Below are positions 8,089 to 39,522 of a stretch of DNA of 39,522 nt, one piece after another; within the stretch, counting starts at the first letter, position 1; each line of letters opens with the position of its first letter. The notes beneath the pieces are model-generated. The model searched no databases, was not told the DNA's origin, and saw nothing but the letters and a program-made list of their open reading frames with translations. Made by a program: the position numbers and the translations under genes. Source of the stretch: an uncultured Clostridia bacterium (GTDB lineage Bacteria; Bacillota; Clostridia; Oscillospirales; Ruminococcaceae); the NCBI GenBank assembly GCA_947628655.1, contig CANRAS010000019.1, positions 1 to 39,522 on the forward strand, written 5' to 3'.

Positions 8089-8117
8089 TTGAAAAATAAA
8101 CGAAATAGGGGTATAAT
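8089..8117 (+). promoter_or_regulatory. Sigma-A promoter of the acyl-chain operon
   Basis: TTGAAA (8089-8094) and TATAAT (8112-8117) with a 17-bp spacer. The transcript would start near 8124, which rules out an upstream TTG at 8089 as start of the first gene. Confidence 0.8.
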
Positions 8118-8166: not shown

Positions 8167-8838
8167 GTGGACAAAGCGTCACAGAAAAAGCAAACGTTTT
8201 TGGGCAGGATATTTCAAACGCTGATTACTTGGACGGTGTATTTTCTGTTTCACCCGAAGATAATCTACGCCGACAAGACGCTGAAAAAACGCTTAAAGGG
8301 GAAATCCGTGGTGTTTGTGGCAAACCACACGCACCATTTTGACGGCGCGTTCGCGATGTCCGTAATGTGGCGTCACAAGCCGTATTGCTTAGTCAAAAAG
8401 AGCTGGTTCGAGAAAAAAGGCACGGGAAAGTGCATTGCCTTGTGCAGAACGATACCCATTGACCTTGACGAGGCGGACGGCGCATGGTATGAAACGGCGC
8501 AGGAGATAGTGCGCGGCGGCGGTTCGCTGTTGATATTCCCCGAGGGCGGGCTTGCGAGAAACAAGCGGATAAACGAATTCAAGCCCGGCGCGGGTCTGCT
8601 TTCGGCAAAGACGGGAACGCCGATTGTGCCGTGCGCGATTTGGGGCGCGTATCCGATGGTTTTCGGAAAGCGACAGAAAATGCTCGTAGGCGAGCCGATT
8701 GAAAGCAACTGCCCAGACTCAATGCGCCCGTCAAAATACGCAAGACAGCTTATAGCGCAGTCGGAGCAGGCGGTAAAGGATCTATACGCGCAGTTGTATG
8801 AAAAATACGGCGGCTGCGGACAGTATGATTTAAAGTAG
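8167..8838 (+). CDS. plsC: PlsC-family lysophospholipid acyltransferase
   Basis: 223 residues from a GTG start that has GGAG seven bases upstream. The frame is open back to 8089 but that part overlaps the promoter. Motif I NHTHHFD (Asn53, His54, Asp59) supplies the catalytic His-Asp pair, FPEGG (124-128) is motif III, and GTPIVP (about 150-155) is motif IV. The family transfers acyl groups from ACP or CoA to lysophosphatidate or related acceptors at the inner membrane face. It is first in an operon with its own ACP, ketosynthase, ketoreductase, dehydratase and PPTase, so it may deliver the chain made there to a lipid, as the acyltransferases of aryl-polyene clusters do. That substrate is inferred. 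A small hairpin (8847-8865) separates it from the ACP gene. Confidence 0.85.
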   Translation: MDKASQKKQTFLGRIFQTLITWTVYFLFHPKIIYADKTLKKRLKGKSVVFVANHTHHFDGAFAMSVMWRHKPYCLVKKSWFEKKGTGKCIALCRTIPIDLDEADGAWYETAQEIVRGGGSLLIFPEGGLARNKRINEFKPGAGLLSAKTGTPIVPCAIWGAYPMVFGKRQKMLVGEPIESNCPDSMRPSKYARQLIAQSEQAVKDLYAQLYEKYGGCGQYDLK

Positions 8839-8899
8839 TACACGATTTCGCTTTTATAAAGCGAATGGAATATTTTTATTTAATTAAGGAGAAGAAATT

Positions 8900-9148
8900 A
8901 TGAACCACGAAGAAATTTGCGCAAAAATCAAGGATATGCTCGTTGAGAACCTGAGAATACCCGCTGACGAACTCGAATACACGAGCGAACTGTTCGGCGA
9001 CGACATCGGTCTGGACTCTATCGACTCTATCGAGATAATCGCGGGTATCGACAACCTGTTCGGCGTTCAGATGACGGGCGCGGCACGCGAGAACTTCCAG
9101 ACTATCGAAACCCTCGCGAAGTACGTTGAAGAACATCAAGGAGCGTAA
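8900..9148 (+). CDS. Acyl carrier protein
   Basis: 82 residues, acidic, with the phosphopantetheine attachment site GLDSIDS (Ser40). It has the usual ACP helix pattern but is not the most common housekeeping sequence, which has DSLD. AAGGAG precedes the ATG by about nine bases. It carries the growing acyl chain as a thioester for the enzymes encoded downstream; the phosphopantetheinyl transferase at 12574-13284 can activate it. The stop codon is separated by one base from the ketosynthase ATG, so the two are translationally linked. It may be a dedicated ACP of this operon rather than the main FAS ACP. Confidence 0.95.
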   Translation: MNHEEICAKIKDMLVENLRIPADELEYTSELFGDDIGLDSIDSIEIIAGIDNLFGVQMTGAARENFQTIETLAKYVEEHQGA

Positions 9149-9149
9149 T

Positions 9150-11393
9150 ATGTCAAAACGTGTTGTTGTTACGGGTCTGGGGCTTATCTGCGCACTCGGC
9201 GGGAATGCCGAAGAGTGCTGGAACGCCGCGGTAAACGGCGTTACGGGAATAGCGCCCGTAAAGACCGTGAACGCCGAGGGGTGTTACGCAAACCTCGGCG
9301 CGGAGGTCGATACGCCGAACGCGGAACTTTCCTCGGAGGATTACGACCGTTCCTCGCTTTTGTGTATCAAGGCGGCGGGAGAGGCTCTTAAAGACAGCGG
9401 ATATGAAGTAACGTCCGCGAACTCGGACAGAATTGGCGTAATTATCGGAAACTGCGTAGGCGGCGCGGTTTCTATCGACAAATACTACACCGCAAAGCAA
9501 AACGGCGGTGGAAAGAACACCGACGTGCTGAAAATGCCCGCGGCGGCTCTCGCAAATAACGTCGCGTTCCACTACGGACTGAACGGCACGACCGCAAACA
9601 TCGTGAACGCCTGCGCGGCGGGGACTATCTCGCTTGCGTATGCCGCAGACCTTATCCGTTCGGGCAAGGCGGACGCGTTTGTCGCGGGCGGTTCGGACAG
9701 CTTTTCGTCGCTCGCGTTCGCGGGATTTCACGCATTGCACGCGCTCTCCGCAGACCCGTGTTCGCCGTTCAACCACTCCAACGGAATAACTTTAGGAGAG
9801 GGCGCGGGTATCCTTATTATTGAGGAATACGAACACGCAAAAGCGCGCGGCGCGAAGATTTACTGCGAAGTTCTCGGCAGCGGCGTTTCATCGGACGCGC
9901 ACCACATCACCGCTCCCGACCCCGAAGGCAAGGGACAGATGCTTGCGATTTCACGCGCTGTCGAAAATTCGGGACTTTCCGCTAATGATATAGACTATAT
10001 CAACGCGCACGGCACGGGTACGGCGAAGAACGACGAGGCGGAGTTCCTTTCACTTCACACTCTGTTTGACGAAAACGACCATTTGTCCGTAAGTTCGACA
10101 AAATCTATGACGGGGCATTGCCTAGGCGCGGCAGGTTCGATCGAGGCGGTGTTCACCGTGAAAGCCGTGTGCGAGGGAGTAGTCCCGCCGACAATCGGCT
10201 ACACGGACGAGAATTTGGCGAACCTCAAGGAAAAAGCGGGCGGTATTGATTTCGTTCCGAACACTAAACGCGAAAAGGACATAGAGTTCGCGGCAAGCAA
10301 CTCTTTCGCGTTCGGCGGGAACAACGCGTCAATAGTATTCGCGAAAAAACCGCGCGAGATACCCGACCGCACGAATAACGAGCGCGTTTTCATAACTGGT
10401 ATGGGCGAGGCTTTGGGTGCGCCGACTGCCGAAATAAGCGGTGACGACTATAAAGAACACGGCATAAAAATGGCGTTCTACCGTAAACTCGACCGCTTTT
10501 CGCAGTTACAGTTAATAAGCGGTATGCGCGCGCTTAAAGACGCTGACATTACCGTGACGGACGACAATTCAAAGGACGTCGGAATAGTTGTCGGCACGGC
10601 GGACGGTCCGCTCACCGAAGTGTACAACTTCCAGAAAACCGTCTGCGAAAACGGCACGGCGGCAGGTTCGGCGTTCGCGTTCCCGAACACGGTTTACAAC
10701 GCGGCGGGCGGTTATTTCAGCATTTTTGCGGGAATAAAGGGCTATAACGTCACAAACGCGAACTCCGTTCAGGCGGGCTTGCAGAGCCTTTGCTATTCGG
10801 CGGACGTAATAAGAAACGGCGACGAAAGCATTATGGTCGCGACAGGCACGGACGAGAACACCGAAGTTACGCGTTATCTTTACGACACTTTGGGAATACT
10901 CTCAAGCGACAAGTTGGGCGAGGGTTCGGTTTCAATAGTTTTGGAAAGCGAAACGAGCGCGAAATCCCGCGGCGCGAAGAAATACGCCGAACTCGCGGGC
11001 TGGGCAAGCGCGCATAAGAGCGTGGAATTCGGCACAATCAAAGGCTCGGAGGACGCGCTGAAAAAGGTAATCCTCGACGCCTGCGCAAACGCGGGAATAA
11101 CTCCCGCAGAAGTCGGCTGTATCTTCGGCTTTGCGAACGGACACCCCGCGATAGACGCGCTTGAACGCGATGTGTTAAGCGAGATATTCGGCGCGGACAG
11201 CGATGTTTTAAAGAACGTTGTCGAAGTAAAACAGACCGTAGGCGAGGCGCGTGCGGCGGCGGCGGCAAAACAGGCGGCTAAAGCGGCTGAATGTCTTAGC
11301 GCGGAGGACTGCGCTTACAAATACGCGCTTGCCGTGTCGTTCGGGCTGGGCGGGCAGTATTCGGCGGTAGTATTAAAGAAGTGTGAGGATTAA
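9150..11393 (+). CDS. Fused ketosynthase / chain-length-factor-like protein (double KS)
   Basis: 747 residues, almost twice a FabF. AAGGAG precedes the ATG; an upstream TTG at 9126 lies inside the ACP gene and is unlikely. The N-terminal half (about 1-400) is a complete KAS II-type ketosynthase with Cys155 in NACAAGT, His287 in AHGTGT, and Lys318 and His323 in TKSMTGHCLGAAG. The C-terminal half (about 411-747) has the same fold but no catalytic residues. The cysteine position aligns with Val540 (NSVQAGLQSL), the first histidine region reads FANGHP, and TGH is replaced by VGE. This matches the KS-alpha/KS-beta (chain-length factor) pair of type II polyketide synthases, here joined in one chain. 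Inference: it condenses malonyl-ACP units and fixes chain length. The product is unknown. Confidence 0.85.
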   Translation: MSKRVVVTGLGLICALGGNAEECWNAAVNGVTGIAPVKTVNAEGCYANLGAEVDTPNAELSSEDYDRSSLLCIKAAGEALKDSGYEVTSANSDRIGVIIGNCVGGAVSIDKYYTAKQNGGGKNTDVLKMPAAALANNVAFHYGLNGTTANIVNACAAGTISLAYAADLIRSGKADAFVAGGSDSFSSLAFAGFHALHALSADPCSPFNHSNGITLGEGAGILIIEEYEHAKARGAKIYCEVLGSGVSSDAHHITAPDPEGKGQMLAISRAVENSGLSANDIDYINAHGTGTAKNDEAEFLSLHTLFDENDHLSVSSTKSMTGHCLGAAGSIEAVFTVKAVCEGVVPPTIGYTDENLANLKEKAGGIDFVPNTKREKDIEFAASNSFAFGGNNASIVFAKKPREIPDRTNNERVFITGMGEALGAPTAEISGDDYKEHGIKMAFYRKLDRFSQLQLISGMRALKDADITVTDDNSKDVGIVVGTADGPLTEVYNFQKTVCENGTAAGSAFAFPNTVYNAAGGYFSIFAGIKGYNVTNANSVQAGLQSLCYSADVIRNGDESIMVATGTDENTEVTRYLYDTLGILSSDKLGEGSVSIVLESETSAKSRGAKKYAELAGWASAHKSVEFGTIKGSEDALKKVILDACANAGITPAEVGCIFGFANGHPAIDALERDVLSEIFGADSDVLKNVVEVKQTVGEARAAAAAKQAAKAAECLSAEDCAYKYALAVSFGLGGQYSAVVLKKCED

Positions 11394-11406
11394 CAAAGGA
11401 GAAACT

Positions 11407-12135
11407 ATGGTTGCACTTGTAACGGGCGCGTCGCGCGGAATAGGCAGGGCGTGCGCCCTTAAACTTGCAAGGGACGGTTACGACATCGCCGTAAACTACA
11501 ACTCAAACGACCAAAAAGCGAATGAAACCGTATCCGAGATAGAGGCGCTTGGAAGAAAAGCGAAAGCGTTCAAGGCGAACACGGCGGACCTTGCGGCGGT
11601 ACAGGGAATGTTCCGCGAGGTACAAAAGGAGTTCGGCGGGCTTGACGTTCTCGTCAACAACGCGGGCGTTGTTGACGACGCGTATCTGCTGATGATAAAC
11701 GAGGAATCGCTGTCGCGTTCACTTGACGTAAACATCAAAGGCTACTTTCATTGCGCACAGCAGGCGGCTCTTAAAATGATGAGCAAAAAGCACGGGAAAA
11801 TCATCAACATCTCGTCGGTAAGTTCCGTGCTTGCGGTCGAGGGGCAGGGCGTTTATTCGGCAACAAAAGGCGCGGTAAACTCAATGACCGCAACGCTTGC
11901 GAAAGAACTCGCCCCGCGCGGCATAACCGTAAACGCAGTCGCTCCGGGATTTATCGAAACCGATATGCTCGACAATATCCCCGCCGAAAAACTCGCGGAA
12001 TACAACAAGGCTATTCCTGCTGGACGTTTCGGCACGGTGGACGATGTGGCGAACGTCGTGGCGGCGCTTTGCTCGCCCGCGTTCGATTACGTCACGGGGC
12101 AGGTTATCGTGCTTGACGGGGGGCTTAGTCTATGA
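11407..12135 (+). CDS. fabG: 3-oxoacyl-ACP reductase (FabG-like short-chain dehydrogenase)
   Basis: 242 residues from the ATG at 11407 with AAAGGAG upstream. The frame opens earlier but only within the ketosynthase tail. The NAD(P)-binding loop is TGASRGIG (residues 6-13), NNAG is at 84-87, and the catalytic tetrad is Asn109, Ser137, Tyr150 and Lys154 (YSATK). It reduces the beta-keto group left by the ketosynthase to a beta-hydroxyacyl-ACP in the cytoplasm. The stop overlaps the start of the dehydratase gene by four bases (ATGA), a sign of coupled translation. Confidence 0.95.
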   Translation: MVALVTGASRGIGRACALKLARDGYDIAVNYNSNDQKANETVSEIEALGRKAKAFKANTADLAAVQGMFREVQKEFGGLDVLVNNAGVVDDAYLLMINEESLSRSLDVNIKGYFHCAQQAALKMMSKKHGKIINISSVSSVLAVEGQGVYSATKGAVNSMTATLAKELAPRGITVNAVAPGFIETDMLDNIPAEKLAEYNKAIPAGRFGTVDDVANVVAALCSPAFDYVTGQVIVLDGGLSL

Positions 12136-12584
12136 TGAATTTGCTTGAAATAAACAAACGCATAAAACAGCGCCCGCCGTTTCAGATGATTGAGAAAGTC
12201 CTCGAACTCGAACCGAACGTTTCGGCAGTCGGCATTAAAAACGTTTCCGTAAACGAGCCGTATTTTACAGGGCATTTCCCCGAAGTGCCGATAATGCCGG
12301 GAGTGCTTTTGATAGAAAGCGCGGCGCAGCTGTGCAGTCTTGTGATTGCTCCCGAAAACGCAGAGGACGATAAACTGTATGTGCTGTTAAAAGTAAAGGA
12401 TTTCAAGTTCCTAAAGCCCGTTGTTCCCGGAGATACGCTGAACATCTGCGTAAAATGCACACTCGCGGCGTCGGGCGCTTACGAGTTTTCGGCGGTAATT
12501 TCCGTTGACGGACAAGTAAAGGCAAAAGGCGTTATGCTGTTTACCTCCATTGAAAAAAGTGCGGTGTATTCAAATGAAACTTGA
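12132..12584 (+). CDS. fabZ: Beta-hydroxyacyl-ACP dehydratase (FabZ-like hotdog protein)
   Basis: 150 residues. The signature GHFPEVPIMPGVLLIESAAQ (47-66) holds catalytic His48 and Glu62, and RPPFQMIEKV (14-23) matches the usual N-terminal RYPFLLVDRV. It removes water to give trans-2-enoyl-ACP. Start is at 12132 (overlapping the reductase stop) or the next codon at 12135. No enoyl reductase gene follows, so chains handled only by this operon would keep their double bonds. Dehydratases of aryl-polyene clusters belong to the same hotdog family, so either role fits. Confidence 0.92.
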   Translation: MMNLLEINKRIKQRPPFQMIEKVLELEPNVSAVGIKNVSVNEPYFTGHFPEVPIMPGVLLIESAAQLCSLVIAPENAEDDKLYVLLKVKDFKFLKPVVPGDTLNICVKCTLAASGAYEFSAVISVDGQVKAKGVMLFTSIEKSAVYSNET

Positions 12585-13284
12585 TTTTTCAGCGTCAATC
12601 ATAACGGGCGGGGTTCGTACGCGCGTGGAAAATACCCGCTTGTTCTACGCCGACGGGTGCAAGGCGTATTTTGACGATATTTTAAGCAAGCGCGGCAAGG
12701 CGTTTGCCGATTCGGCGTGCGGATTTTTACTGCTTGACAGTTTACTTCAAAAGCACAAGATAAACAGGCTTGAACTCGTGATTACTCTCGATGAAAGCGG
12801 CAGACCCCGCACGAACCGCGCCGATTTGGATTTCAGCATATCGCACAGCGAGGGCTGCGCGGCGTGCGCCGTTTTGCTCGGCGAAAATACGGACAGCGAA
12901 CCCGTCAAGGTCGGCATTGACATTCAGCACGAACGCCCGTACTCTCTCGAAAAAATGACGGAACTTGCCCGCGCGTTTATGAACGACGAGGAACTTGGAA
13001 AGTTCTCCGAACCGTCGGACGACAAGCACATTCCGCTGATAAACAGCGACAGGGATATGGAGCATTTCGCGCGGAAAAACAAGCAGTTCTACACGGCGTG
13101 GACGCACCGCGAGGCGCTTGCCAAACGCGAGGGCGCGGACATTTTCGACAATCTGAAAACGGCGAAAATCGCCGACGAACACTTCCGCGACGGCGTTATA
13201 AACTCGTGCGGAGAACGGTATTATTACGCGATTTGCGCTCCGTCAGAGGCGTTTTACGAGCCGCCCGCGGAGGAGGACGAATGA
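12574..13284 (+). CDS. 4'-phosphopantetheinyl transferase (Sfp-type)
   Basis: 236 residues from the ATG at 12574, which overlaps the dehydratase by 11 bases and has no clear ribosome binding site, suggesting coupled translation. GRPRTN...FSISHSEG (about 76-94), GIDIQ (114-118, metal-binding Asp116) and WTHREALAKREG (176-187, with Glu180 and Lys184) are the three family signatures. The enzyme transfers phosphopantetheine from CoA to the serine of an ACP. Finding it beside an ACP and a ketosynthase supports a self-sufficient synthase. The acidic C-terminal tail (PPAEEDE) is unusual but short. Confidence 0.9.
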   Translation: MKLDFSASIITGGVRTRVENTRLFYADGCKAYFDDILSKRGKAFADSACGFLLLDSLLQKHKINRLELVITLDESGRPRTNRADLDFSISHSEGCAACAVLLGENTDSEPVKVGIDIQHERPYSLEKMTELARAFMNDEELGKFSEPSDDKHIPLINSDRDMEHFARKNKQFYTAWTHREALAKREGADIFDNLKTAKIADEHFRDGVINSCGERYYYAICAPSEAFYEPPAEEDE

Positions 13285-13997
13285 AGATACTGATACTGAA
13301 CGGTTCGCCGCGCGGAGCGCGTTCAAACACGTTACGGCTGGCAACAGCTTTCGCGGACGGTTTCCCCGACGGCACGGAATTAGAAACGCTCCACCTTAGC
13401 GACCTCAACATCAAGCCTTGCCTGGGCTGTTTTTCGTGCTGGACTAAAACGGCGGGGCGGTGCGTAATAAGCGATGATATGAAAACCGTCAGGCGCGCCA
13501 TAGAACTTGCCGATGTGATAATCGAGAGTTTTCCGCTGTATTTTTTCGGTATGCCGACCGCTATTAAAACAATGACCGATAGGTGCCTGCCGTTTATGAA
13601 AACCTACCTCGGCACGAGCGACGAGGACGGCAAGTCGTCATTCCACCAACTTCGCGACGAGCGTATGCGGGAGAAAAAACTCGTGCTTATCTCCACCTGC
13701 GGATATGTGCAGGCACAGCCGATGTACCCCGCGCTTTTAAAGCAATACGACCTGATTTGCGGTGAGGGGAACTACACCGCGATACTCTGCCCGCAAGGCG
13801 AGTTGTTCGGCTATGACGGCTTAGCGGAACGCCAGAAGAACGCCTATCTCGCGGACGTCCGCACAGCGGGCGCACAGTTTGCGAAACTCGGCAAAATCCC
13901 CGCTGAAACCGCCGAACGCTTGAAAAAACCTGTACTTTCAGCGGGAGGGTTTCAAGTTGTCGTTAATAACCATTGGGGGAGCGGGGACAGTTTATAG
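13281..13997 (+). CDS. Iron-sulfur flavoprotein (NADPH-dependent FMN reductase family)
   Basis: 238 residues. The ATG at 13281 overlaps the PPTase stop and has GGAGG upstream. The flavodoxin-like start MKILILNGSPRG binds FMN phosphate. Cys47, Cys50, Cys53 and Cys61 form the compact CX2CX2CX7C motif of archaeal and clostridial Isf proteins, which hold one [4Fe-4S] cluster. These proteins shuttle electrons from ferredoxin to small acceptors; the natural partner is often unknown. As last gene of the acyl-chain operon it could supply electrons to, or act on, the product, but that is only context. The last codons and stop lie in a heptamer repeat (13989 onward). Confidence 0.85.
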   Translation: MKILILNGSPRGARSNTLRLATAFADGFPDGTELETLHLSDLNIKPCLGCFSCWTKTAGRCVISDDMKTVRRAIELADVIIESFPLYFFGMPTAIKTMTDRCLPFMKTYLGTSDEDGKSSFHQLRDERMREKKLVLISTCGYVQAQPMYPALLKQYDLICGEGNYTAILCPQGELFGYDGLAERQKNAYLADVRTAGAQFAKLGKIPAETAERLKKPVLSAGGFQVVVNNHWGSGDSL

Positions 13998-16492: not shown

Positions 16493-17185
16493 TTGAGAAA
16501 ATTCTGGGGCGTTGCCAAAAACGAAAATTTCAGCGTAGGCTGTACGGGAAAAACGGTTTTTGTGTATGACAGCAACGGCAAGGAAACCGCGAAGTTTTCT
16601 GATTTTCCGCACGCTTACAAGGCGGTGTTTATGCCGAACAACAACATCATAGCCGTGAAGTCAACGGAGGGCAGTCTTGGGTTTTATAATCTTGATACGC
16701 TGTCGCTTATTAAGTTCGTTACGATAACGAAAATCGGAGCGCAGGACGAGGGTTTTGCGTTTTCTCCCGACGGAAAATATTTCTACAATATCGAAAAACC
16801 GAACGACACGACGCGCACCGAACTCGCAGTTTACGAAACGGAGAATTTCACAAAAACCGAAACGATTTTTGCGGATAACGAGAAAATGGTATTGGATTGT
16901 TTGGAGTTTGACGAAACGGGCGTGTGCTATGTATTAGGCTTTATGCGCGGGGATACGGGGATTATCGCGAACGGATTTACGGCGATTTTCGACCGTGAAA
17001 ACAAAACCTTAACCGACATTCGCCCGCACGAGATTAAGACTTACAACTATCTTCACGCATACAAGAAATGCGAGTTATACGGTTTCACCGAAAAGTCGGT
17101 TGAATTAAATCCCGCGCTGAGCAAACTCGCAGAAATTCCGAAAACGAGCGTTAAAGAGGTTTTCCTCGGTTCTTTTCCTGCATAA
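16493..17185 (+). CDS. Unknown protein, upstream copy of a tandem duplicate
   Basis: 230 residues from a TTG start with AAAGGGAG upstream; the paralogue at 17205 has ATG at the same place. I do not recognise the family. The pattern of short strands ending in YDSNGK, FSPDGKYFYNI and IFDRENKTL resembles beta-propeller (WD40/YVTN-like) blades, and there is no signal peptide. It is very similar to 17205-17894 over about 220 codons, so the duplication is recent. The last ten codons (about EVFLGSFPA) differ from the paralogue and resemble the terminator and leader upstream of this gene, so the tail is probably a junction artefact of the duplication. Confidence 0.75.
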   Translation: MRKFWGVAKNENFSVGCTGKTVFVYDSNGKETAKFSDFPHAYKAVFMPNNNIIAVKSTEGSLGFYNLDTLSLIKFVTITKIGAQDEGFAFSPDGKYFYNIEKPNDTTRTELAVYETENFTKTETIFADNEKMVLDCLEFDETGVCYVLGFMRGDTGIIANGFTAIFDRENKTLTDIRPHEIKTYNYLHAYKKCELYGFTEKSVELNPALSKLAEIPKTSVKEVFLGSFPA

Positions 17186-17204: not shown

Positions 17205-17894
17205 ATGAAAAAATTCTGGGGCGTTGCCAAAAACGAAAATTTCAGCGTAGGCTGTACGGGAAAAACGTTTTTTGTGTATGACAGCAACGGCAAGGAAACC
17301 GCGAAGTTCTCGGACTTCCCGCACGCTTATAAGGCGGTGTTTATGCCGAACAAAAACATCATAGCCGTGAAGTCAACGGAGGGCAGTCTTGGGTTTTATA
17401 ATCTTGATACGCTGTCGCTTATTAAGTTCGTTACGATAACGAAAATCGGAGCGCAGGACGAGGGTTTCACGTTTTCTCCCGACGGAAAATATTTCTACAA
17501 TATTGAAAAACCGAACGACACGACGCGTACCGAACTCGCAGTTTACGAAACGGAACATTTCACAAAAACCGAAACGCTTTTTGCAGATAACGAGAAAATG
17601 GTATTAGATTGTCTTGAGTTTGACGAAACGGGCGTGTGCTATGTATTAGGCTTTATGTGCGGGGATACAGGGGTTATCGCGAACGGATTTACGGCGATTT
17701 TCGACCGCAAAAACAAAACGCTTGTTGACATTCGCCCGCACGACCTCGAAACCTACGATTATCTTCAAGCATACAAAAGCCGGGAATTAGACGGCTTTAC
17801 CGAAAAGGCGCTTGAATTTAACCCCGAACTTAGCGACATTGAGGAGATAACGAAAACTAGTGTGAAAGAAGAGTTTGATAAAAGCGGGAAATAA
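17205..17894 (+). CDS. Unknown protein, downstream copy of a tandem duplicate
   Basis: 229 residues, ATG at 17205 with AAAGGAG upstream, 19 bases after the first copy's stop. It has the same propeller-like pattern as the copy at 16493. Its C-terminus (KTSVKEEFDKSGK) is probably the original one, since the other copy's end derives from duplicated non-coding sequence. Most substitutions between the copies are conservative or silent, suggesting both are still under selection or split recently. No terminator is seen before the tRNA promoter. Confidence 0.75.
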   Translation: MKKFWGVAKNENFSVGCTGKTFFVYDSNGKETAKFSDFPHAYKAVFMPNKNIIAVKSTEGSLGFYNLDTLSLIKFVTITKIGAQDEGFTFSPDGKYFYNIEKPNDTTRTELAVYETEHFTKTETLFADNEKMVLDCLEFDETGVCYVLGFMCGDTGVIANGFTAIFDRKNKTLVDIRPHDLETYDYLQAYKSRELDGFTEKALEFNPELSDIEEITKTSVKEEFDKSGK

Positions 17895-38614: not shown

Positions 38615-39522
38615 TTGAACAGACAAAATTTTTCTAATAATATGGGAAATAATAGTTGTTGTATTCCCGGACCTCCCGGACCCCCCGGACCTCCCGGCTG
38701 TCCCGGACCAAGAGGACCTCAGGGTGAAAGAGGTTTAAGAGGATTTCAAGGTGAACGAGGACCTCAGGGCGAACGCGGTTTAAGAGGTTTTCAAGGCGAA
38801 CAAGGTCCTATAGGTGAAACAGGTCCGCAAGGCTCGCAAGGCGAACAAGGTCCTATAGGTGAAACAGGTCCGCAAGGCCCGCAGGGCGAACCAGGCCCTG
38901 TAGGCGCAACAGGTCCGCAAGGACCGCAGGGCGAACAAGGTCCTGTAGGAGCAACAGGTCCGCAAGGCCCGCAGGGCGAACAAGGACCTATAGGCGCAAC
39001 AGGCCCGCAAGGCCCGCAAGGCGAACCAGGTCCTGTAGGAGCAACAGGTCCGCAAGGACCGCAAGGCGAACAAGGTCCTGTAGGCGCAACAGGTCCGCAA
39101 GGCCCGCAGGGCGAACAAGGACCTATAGGCGCAACAGGCCCGCAAGGCCCGCAAGGCGAACAAGGACCTATAGGCGCAACAGGTCCGCAAGGCCCGCAGG
39201 GCGAACAAGGACCTATCGGCGCAACAGGTCCGCAAGGACCGCAAGGCGAACAAGGACCTATCGGCGCAACAGGCCCGCAAGGTCCGCAGGGCGAACAAGG
39301 ACCTATAGGTCCAACAGGCCCGCAAGGTCCGCAGGGCGAACAAGGACCTATAGGCGCAACAGGTCCGCAAGGCCCGCAGGGCGAACAAGGACCTGTAGGC
39401 GCAACAGGTCCGCAAGGCCCGCAGGGCGAACAAGGACCTATAGGTGCAACAGGTCCGCAAGGACCGCAAGGCGAACAAGGACCTATCGGCGCAACAGGCC
39501 CGCAAGGTCCGCAGGGCGAACA
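38615..39522 (+). CDS. Collagen-like Gly-X-Y repeat protein, C-terminus beyond right edge
   Basis: 302 codons are visible from a TTG start (AAGGAG nine bases upstream) and the frame is open at the edge. A short N-terminus without signal peptide ([17 protein letters not shown]) leads into [16 protein letters not shown] and then uninterrupted Gly-X-Y triplets, mostly [18 protein letters not shown]. Such proteins in Bacillota (BclA, BclB and relatives) form trimeric filaments on spores or cells; cysteines 15, 16 and 29 could cross-link them. The globular C-terminal domain that would tell the type is not in the window. A spore-surface role is a reasonable guess given the missing signal peptide. 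Confidence 0.9.
38815..39522 (+). repeat. 45-bp tandem repeats of the collagen-like gene
   Basis: The 15-residue unit (five Gly-X-Y triplets, [15 protein letters not shown]) is repeated about fifteen times to the window edge with mainly silent changes (GGT/GGC/GGA). Number changes by slippage or recombination would keep the frame. Long-read data would be needed to trust the copy number. Confidence 0.9.

Follow-up and report, generated by a model that had tools for sequence, protein, structure and literature searches.

The DNA analysed here, a stretch of 39,522 nucleotides called the window below, corresponds to contig C19 in the 2.09-Mb genome (completeness 95.6%) of an uncultured Clostridia bacterium. 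Seven open reading frames (ORFs), all on the forward strand at positions 8167-13997, were recognized by ORF calls and profile scans as genes for a PlsC-type acyltransferase, an acyl carrier protein (ACP), a ketosynthase (KS) joined to a chain-length factor (CLF) in one chain, a ketoreductase (KR), a dehydratase (DH), a phosphopantetheinyl transferase (PPTase) and a flavodoxin-fold flavoprotein (FLV). This operon is probably a dedicated secondary-lipid synthase of discrete (type II) enzymes that would place an unsaturated chain onto a membrane lipid, with FLV tailoring the chain. As far as could be seen, it is a conserved and apparently uncharacterised variant of the KS-CLF lipid synthases. An earlier, sequence-only reading of this DNA had proposed such a seven-gene operon and it proved to be real, a dedicated synthase standing beside a separate fatty acid synthase (FAS) locus. 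That reading is upheld in its core and partly right as a whole. The arrangement is not due to chance, as the same make-up, mostly in the same order, was found in dozens of genomes. The annotated features are as follows.

8089..8117 (+), promoter-like TTGAAA-17-TATAAT site, consensus scan with 11/12 matches, about 50 bases 5' of the GTG start
8167..8838 (+), PlsC-type acyltransferase with GTG start, PF01553 at 1.1e-20, NHTHHFD and FPEG motifs
8900..9148 (+), ACP with GLDSIDS phosphopantetheine site, PF00550 (PP-binding) at 1.3e-10
9150..11393 (+), single-chain KS-CLF of 747 amino acids (aa), ketoacyl-synt N and C domains
9150-10379 (+), KS half, with Cys155, His287, Lys318 and His323
10380-11393 (+), CLF half, with Asn538 in the Cys place and Glu699 in the second His place
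11407..12135 (+), KR, a FabG-like short-chain dehydrogenase/reductase (SDR) with YSATK, TIGR01830 at 1.9e-77, below its cut-off
12132..12584 (+), FabZ-type DH with GHFPxxPIMPGVL motif, NF000582 at 3.7e-38, above its cut-off
12574..13284 (+), Sfp-type PPTase, ACPS PF01648 at 1.1e-6
13281..13997 (+), FLV, a flavodoxin-fold flavin mononucleotide (FMN) oxidoreductase, FMN_red PF03358 at 1.6e-17 and Flavodoxin_2 PF02525 at 2.4e-16
13419-13463 (+), CX2CX2CX7C motif of FLV, residues 47-61

The tight packing with overlaps of 4-14 bases described earlier holds for three junctions (KR/DH, 4 bases; DH/PPTase, 11 bases; PPTase/FLV, 4 bases), while the other three are gaps (PlsC-ACP, 61 bases; ACP-KS, 1 base; KS-KR, 13 bases). 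The promoter-like site is a consensus match only, since nine such sites occur in the region and 5.0 +/- 2.1 in shuffled sequence. Profile scans of the seven genes revealed no fabD, fabK/fabI or acc gene in the window operon, and the three proteins submitted to PADLOC gave no match.

The single-chain KS-CLF

The catalytic Cys, His, Lys and His of the KS half are intact in all 84 aligned rows. The corresponding Cys position of the CLF half is occupied by Asn in 83 out of 83 readable rows (one row has X), the second His position by Glu, Asp or Asn in 84/84 rows, and the first His position is never His. The window protein itself lacks the Cys and both His residues in its CLF half, in agreement with the earlier statement that the second KS domain had lost them. 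The AlphaFold2 (AF2) model of the whole chain is of good quality (pLDDT 88.5, pTM 0.92), and its first-ranked Foldseek match is the fused KS-CLF of PfaC (6RIW; TMq 0.81, identity 18%), which is also the sole chain-spanning match among the 50 shown. Both halves are well matched by the two chains of PDB entry 9s5h. In VIA-align the matches listed for the whole model were to the KS half, and the comparison covers that half only.

Both halves were also compared with the housekeeping enzyme FabF. The fabF profile TIGR03150 matches the protein at 5.8e-145, with the best stretch (residues 3-397, 483 bits) falling just below the cut-off of 493.75. In structural alignment the KS half is 40% identical to Bacillus subtilis FabF, and it scores higher with FabF than with the Iga (ishigamide) KS. 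The profile of the C-terminal half likewise scores FabF above the actinorhodin CLF.

Nearly full-length single-chain relatives with about 33-35% identity were found on plasmids of Priestia megaterium and Streptomyces. The tree of the separated halves has 50 rows and leaves out six that had formed long branches in a first tree (three aryl polyene (APE) proteins, the Streptomyces KSa and KSb, and L112). Iga is absent from it, and the Photobacterium stretch L139, where the longest ORF is 506 aa, provided no PfaC for it. The clostridial KS halves join the fused KS halves of Priestia and Streptomyces (92/83) and lie outside the FabF group. The CLF halves of the clostridial, Priestia and Streptomyces groups join at 100/100, at a point where long branches meet according to a warning of the program. 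The fused proteins of Priestia and Streptomyces thus appear in the tree as the nearest non-clostridial kin. A clade confined to the KS and CLF halves from Clostridia, the pattern expected from a recent duplication, was rejected by the approximately unbiased (AU) test (p 0.0003).

Occurrence and gene content of the operon

The KS-CLF is near-universal in the genus and patchy elsewhere. It was found in 38/43 genomes of the genus (25/27 of those of high quality), three of the matches being split or partial. In the order sample 4/295 genomes carried it at E 1e-90, and in the class sample 4/391 at E 1e-150, the own genome included in both. The earlier impression that a single-chain KS-CLF is unusual in Clostridia was therefore not borne out for this genus, and fused chains occur elsewhere too. 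When a single genome was scanned for each GTDB species, 157 stretches with a relative at E 1e-3 were obtained, and the best 80 of the 157 all come from Clostridia or its subgroups except for four labelled Bacteroides sp. (L050), Bacillota (L057) and bacterium (L054 and L083). Among the carriers are Ruminococcus bromii ATCC 27255 and YE282, Ruminococcaceae P7, Eubacterium sp. MSJ-21 and Lachnospiraceae G41. In Lachnospira eligens ATCC 27750 (NC_012780.1, locus L103) the operon lies on a 627-kb plasmid together with fabD, acc, flavodoxin-family and plsX genes.

A total of 82 loci were profiled, namely these best 80 plus L010 and L103, and 46 of them were assessable, with at least 2.5 kb upstream and at least 4.5 kb downstream. 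The ACP, KS-CLF and KR were present in all 46 assessable loci, FLV in 44, DH in 37, PlsC in 34 and PPTase in 19. Its higher frequency relative to DH, PlsC and PPTase places FLV in the core of the operon. A patatin-like phospholipase gene in the same orientation and at most 3 kb away was observed in 14 of the 82 loci, and plsX near the operon in two. Motifs of the partner enzymes are also well conserved: NHx4[DE] in 54/54 complete PlsC homologues, DS[IL] in 78/78 of ACP and HFPx3IxPG in 59/63 of DH. The G-x-D-x-Q and W-T-x-R-E columns of the PPTase are conserved in an alignment of 30 rows, and conserved columns were likewise read in the alignments of KR and DH homologues.

The stated lack of fabD, fabK, fabI and acc genes is correct for the window operon and does not extend to the whole family. 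In ten loci (nine lachnospiral, plus L083 from the order to which the window belongs) fabD and acc accompany the operon. Nine other loci, which are those without DH, have fabH, fabK, fabD and fabG beside the operon in all nine cases, and FabZ within the stretch in five.

A conserved protein of 203-227 aa is encoded upstream of the ACP in eight loci of this FAS-adjacent type (L059, L061, L064, L065, L067, L069, L070 and L072). It carries N[CS]GCG[IV][IV]AGLDA and HWVT motifs and might be papain-like, which is a guess; the one such protein scanned had no Pfam match at 1e-5.

FLV and the enoyl reductases

The sequence-only reading held that the operon has no enoyl reductase (ER). No canonical ER was found in it; however, the seventh gene, FLV, had been counted but given no name and was left out of that argument, and its presence leaves the premise open. 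The AF2 model of FLV (pLDDT 85.8) shares its fold with azo, quinone and flavone reductases. The top PDB match by sequence is the flavone reductase FLR (7D38), at E 2.8e-7 over residues 2-108 only, and the fold score against FLR is close to the scores against the other reductases. The FMN_red-type superfamily, in which FLV probably binds FMN, takes in FLR, an ene-reductase, and a similar role for FLV is a reasonable guess rather than a result. The CX2CX2CX7C motif is invariant in 71/71 rows and is reminiscent of the iron-sulfur flavoprotein (Isf) type of FMN oxidoreductase.

FLV was absent beside the operon in only two of the assessable loci (L049 and L010), and in the L010 genome (G217) it lies on another contig in the order TetR-DUF308-patatin-FLV. 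Weaker FLV-like genes occur in 10/291 genomes of the order that have no KS-CLF at E 1e-90.

FLV-type genes were observed in other settings. On G217:C29 (L137), the contig just mentioned, and on G112:C20 (L136) they adjoin a gene for a patatin-like phospholipase with DUF6363; the pair comes after TetR and DUF308 genes on G217:C29, and G112 has no KS-CLF at E 1e-90. In two further genomes, G172 (L126) and G267 (L127), an FLV-like domain is found in frames of 559 and 549 aa respectively with hydrophobic C-terminal segments. Both frames are adjoined by a PadR regulator gene, and that of G172 has a sub-threshold SCP2 match.

The genome has its own housekeeping FAS locus, on contig C5, with fabD, fabH, fabG, fabF, accB, fabZ, accD and accA, and a 464-aa ORF, not scanned with profiles, at the place of accC. 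A FabV gene unlinked to the operon is found on contig C15 (13370-14050). FabV was present in 17/19 genomes of the genus (E about 1e-108); as the family matched none of 14 control genomes, the identification rests on the score. FabK was found in 0/19 genomes of the genus, the own genome included, with a positive control of 7/12 genomes from other orders; in the family, unlike the genus, 70/119 sampled genomes have FabK. Among the profiled loci FabV was not found in any of the 82, nor FabK in any of the ten with fabD and acc. The FabI profile gave 34 matches there, all at 47 bits or less, and the twelve inspected all lay at KR genes.

FabI and FabK, considered as a hidden ER of the genome, were rejected, FabK on the counts above and FabI on a query that gave 0/31 genomes in a search run without a positive control; FabV takes their place in the genus. 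The genome itself has SDR matches at six places, of which five on inspection showed the ordinary Y-x3-K; the sixth is L100.

The predicted lipid and its relation to known synthases

In the proposed pathway the Sfp-type PPTase would load the ACP. The single-chain KS-CLF, whose fold and residues suggest a built-in pseudo-heterodimer, would set the chain length while adding malonyl units to a small starter, and in this genome malonyl-ACP would presumably be supplied by the housekeeping fabD and acc genes. Judging from their families, the KR and the FabZ-type DH would convert each beta-keto group to a trans double bond. FLV would be the likeliest enzyme to reduce selected double bonds or to tailor the chain otherwise. 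As there is no canonical ER in the window operon, the chain should keep all or some of its double bonds, barring reduction by FLV or by FabV in trans. PlsC may then transfer it from the ACP to a lysophospholipid or 1-acylglycerol-3-phosphate and so give a membrane lipid that bears a polyunsaturated chain. PlsC, together with the patatin and plsX genes, points to a phospholipid as the destination.

Several observations weigh against this reading. PlsC is absent from 12/46 assessable loci and DH from 9/46, so that neither the lipid step nor the DH step is universal within the operon, and nor is the phospholipid as destination; the nine DH-less loci, two of them from Saccharofermentans, adjoin FAS genes. 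The KS half stands outside FabF in the best tree, but the AU test gives no firm rejection of a topology that unites the clostridial KS halves with FabF (p 0.076), and the deep CLF grouping is a meeting of long branches. The housekeeping FabV could saturate the chain in trans. No starter-unit gene that would identify the primer is found in the operon, and the lipid itself is a prediction.

It is quite possible that the operon is instead a pure conjugated polyene synthase, akin to the highly reducing type II polyketide synthases (PKSs), which would make an all-trans polyene for transfer to lipid by PlsC, with FLV as a redox or protective helper that keeps, for example, the polyene or a quinone reduced. 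The domain logic of KS-CLF, KR, DH and ACP without a canonical ER argues for this, as do the ten loci that have fabD and acc and yet no FabK or FabV. The APE cluster of E. coli CFT073 has the same parts, namely KS, CLF, KR, DH, ACP and a lysophospholipid acyltransferase, and no ER is listed for it in the relevant passages of PMC8253772. However, retention of FLV in 44/46 loci, against 37 for DH, 34 for PlsC and 19 for PPTase, would be unusual for a helper. The APE cluster also encodes a short CLF as a separate protein, a second KS for initiation, an aryl-starter ligase, a methyltransferase and export proteins, none of which is among the seven clostridial genes, and it has no PPTase of its own, unlike the window operon. 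With no aryl-starter, ligase or export gene among the seven, nothing supports an aryl polyene, to which the earlier reading had likened the product.

That FLV serves the operon as an enoyl reductase of its own, so that the product is a special fatty acid of unusual length, reduced in part or in full, and not a polyene, appears rather unlikely. Quinone and azo reductases make up most of its listed structural neighbours, the likeness to FLR covers only about 107 aligned residues of the shared flavodoxin fold, FabK is also next door in nine loci, and FLV-like genes occur in genomes of the order without KS-CLF. A second ordinary FAS, in which an accessory module derived from FabF would supply housekeeping lipid and FabV would act in trans, is improbable: the FabF-like scores of both halves, the p of 0.076 and the nine FAS-adjacent loci are consistent with it, but the dead CLF half is conserved throughout, the operon has its own ACP and, in 19/46 loci, its own PPTase, a housekeeping FAS locus is also present, and the trees cluster the KS halves of fused proteins while rejecting a clostridial KS and CLF clade.

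The preferred reading, a dedicated lipid synthase with FLV as tailoring enzyme, describes a system that would resemble a dissociated polyunsaturated fatty acid (PUFA) synthase or an APE lipid system in strict anaerobes. The operon is predicted to work like both while belonging to neither. PUFA (Pfa) synthases share the fusion of KS and CLF in one chain, and their product is destined for lipid. Their ER, PfaD, is a flavin-dependent, FabK-like TIM-barrel enzyme; no NMO domain of this FabK/NMO-fold type was found among the seven genes, where the flavodoxin-fold flavoprotein stands instead. The Pfa enzymes are type I multidomain proteins with tandem ACPs and their own acyltransferase (AT) domain, whereas the clostridial operon has discrete genes, one ACP and no AT domain. 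According to passages of PMC3098273, the Pfa set likewise has KR, DH and PPTase, together with a separate ER gene. It would be a more speculative and, we consider, unlikely extension that the operon is a type II counterpart of the PUFA synthases in anaerobic gut Clostridia, in which FLV, as a new class of ER that is perhaps an iron-sulfur protein, would reduce some of the cycles and so give a defined polyunsaturated chain without oxygen, to be passed by PlsC to phospholipid.

Highly reducing type II PKSs show traits also seen here, namely intact KS residues, a CLF without the Cys and clustered ACP, KR and DH without a canonical ER. In the ishigamide (Iga) system (6KXD), however, the KS and the CLF form two chains, in contrast to the one 747-aa chain of the window. 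The Priestia megaterium plasmid pBM500 and the Streptomyces plasmids share a single-chain KS-CLF next to ACP, KR, DH and fabD, and Priestia has a PPTase as well. Priestia differs by an MFS transporter and a thioesterase, and Streptomyces by additional KSs, joined in L105 by AMP-binding and MFS proteins. The annotation of these stretches, which is incomplete in PLSDB, includes neither a flavodoxin-type gene nor one for PlsC.

The yellow substance of Clostridium thermocellum (celluxanthenes, flavoaffinins) was considered as kin and set aside, as the PKS there is of the iterative type I according to the relevant parts of PMC12144888 and PMC11839114. A catalogue of type II PKSs (PMC10132072) has Firmicutes among the KS-CLF holders, and its main text does not contain 'fused', 'Clostridia' or 'Ruminococc'. 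Among the literature matches listed, which comprise titles and abstract openings with few subscription journals covered, none described an operon of this kind, with KS and CLF fused, from gut Clostridia.

Two further observations were made elsewhere in the window. Tandem beta-propeller-like genes with weak Pfam matches lie at 16493-17185 and 17205-17894 (+), with 197/224 residues identical. A collagen-like Gly-X-Y repeat protein with about 16 copies of a 45-base unit is encoded at 38615-39520 (+) and runs off the contig end.

If the proposed function is correct, gut and rumen bacteria, including the cultured R. bromii and L. eligens, would make a membrane lipid that is apparently undescribed, and they would do so by a route to polyunsaturated or polyene lipids that needs no oxygen. 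A flavodoxin-fold enzyme could then join the known enoyl reductases. As cultured carriers can be named, the question is open to experiment.

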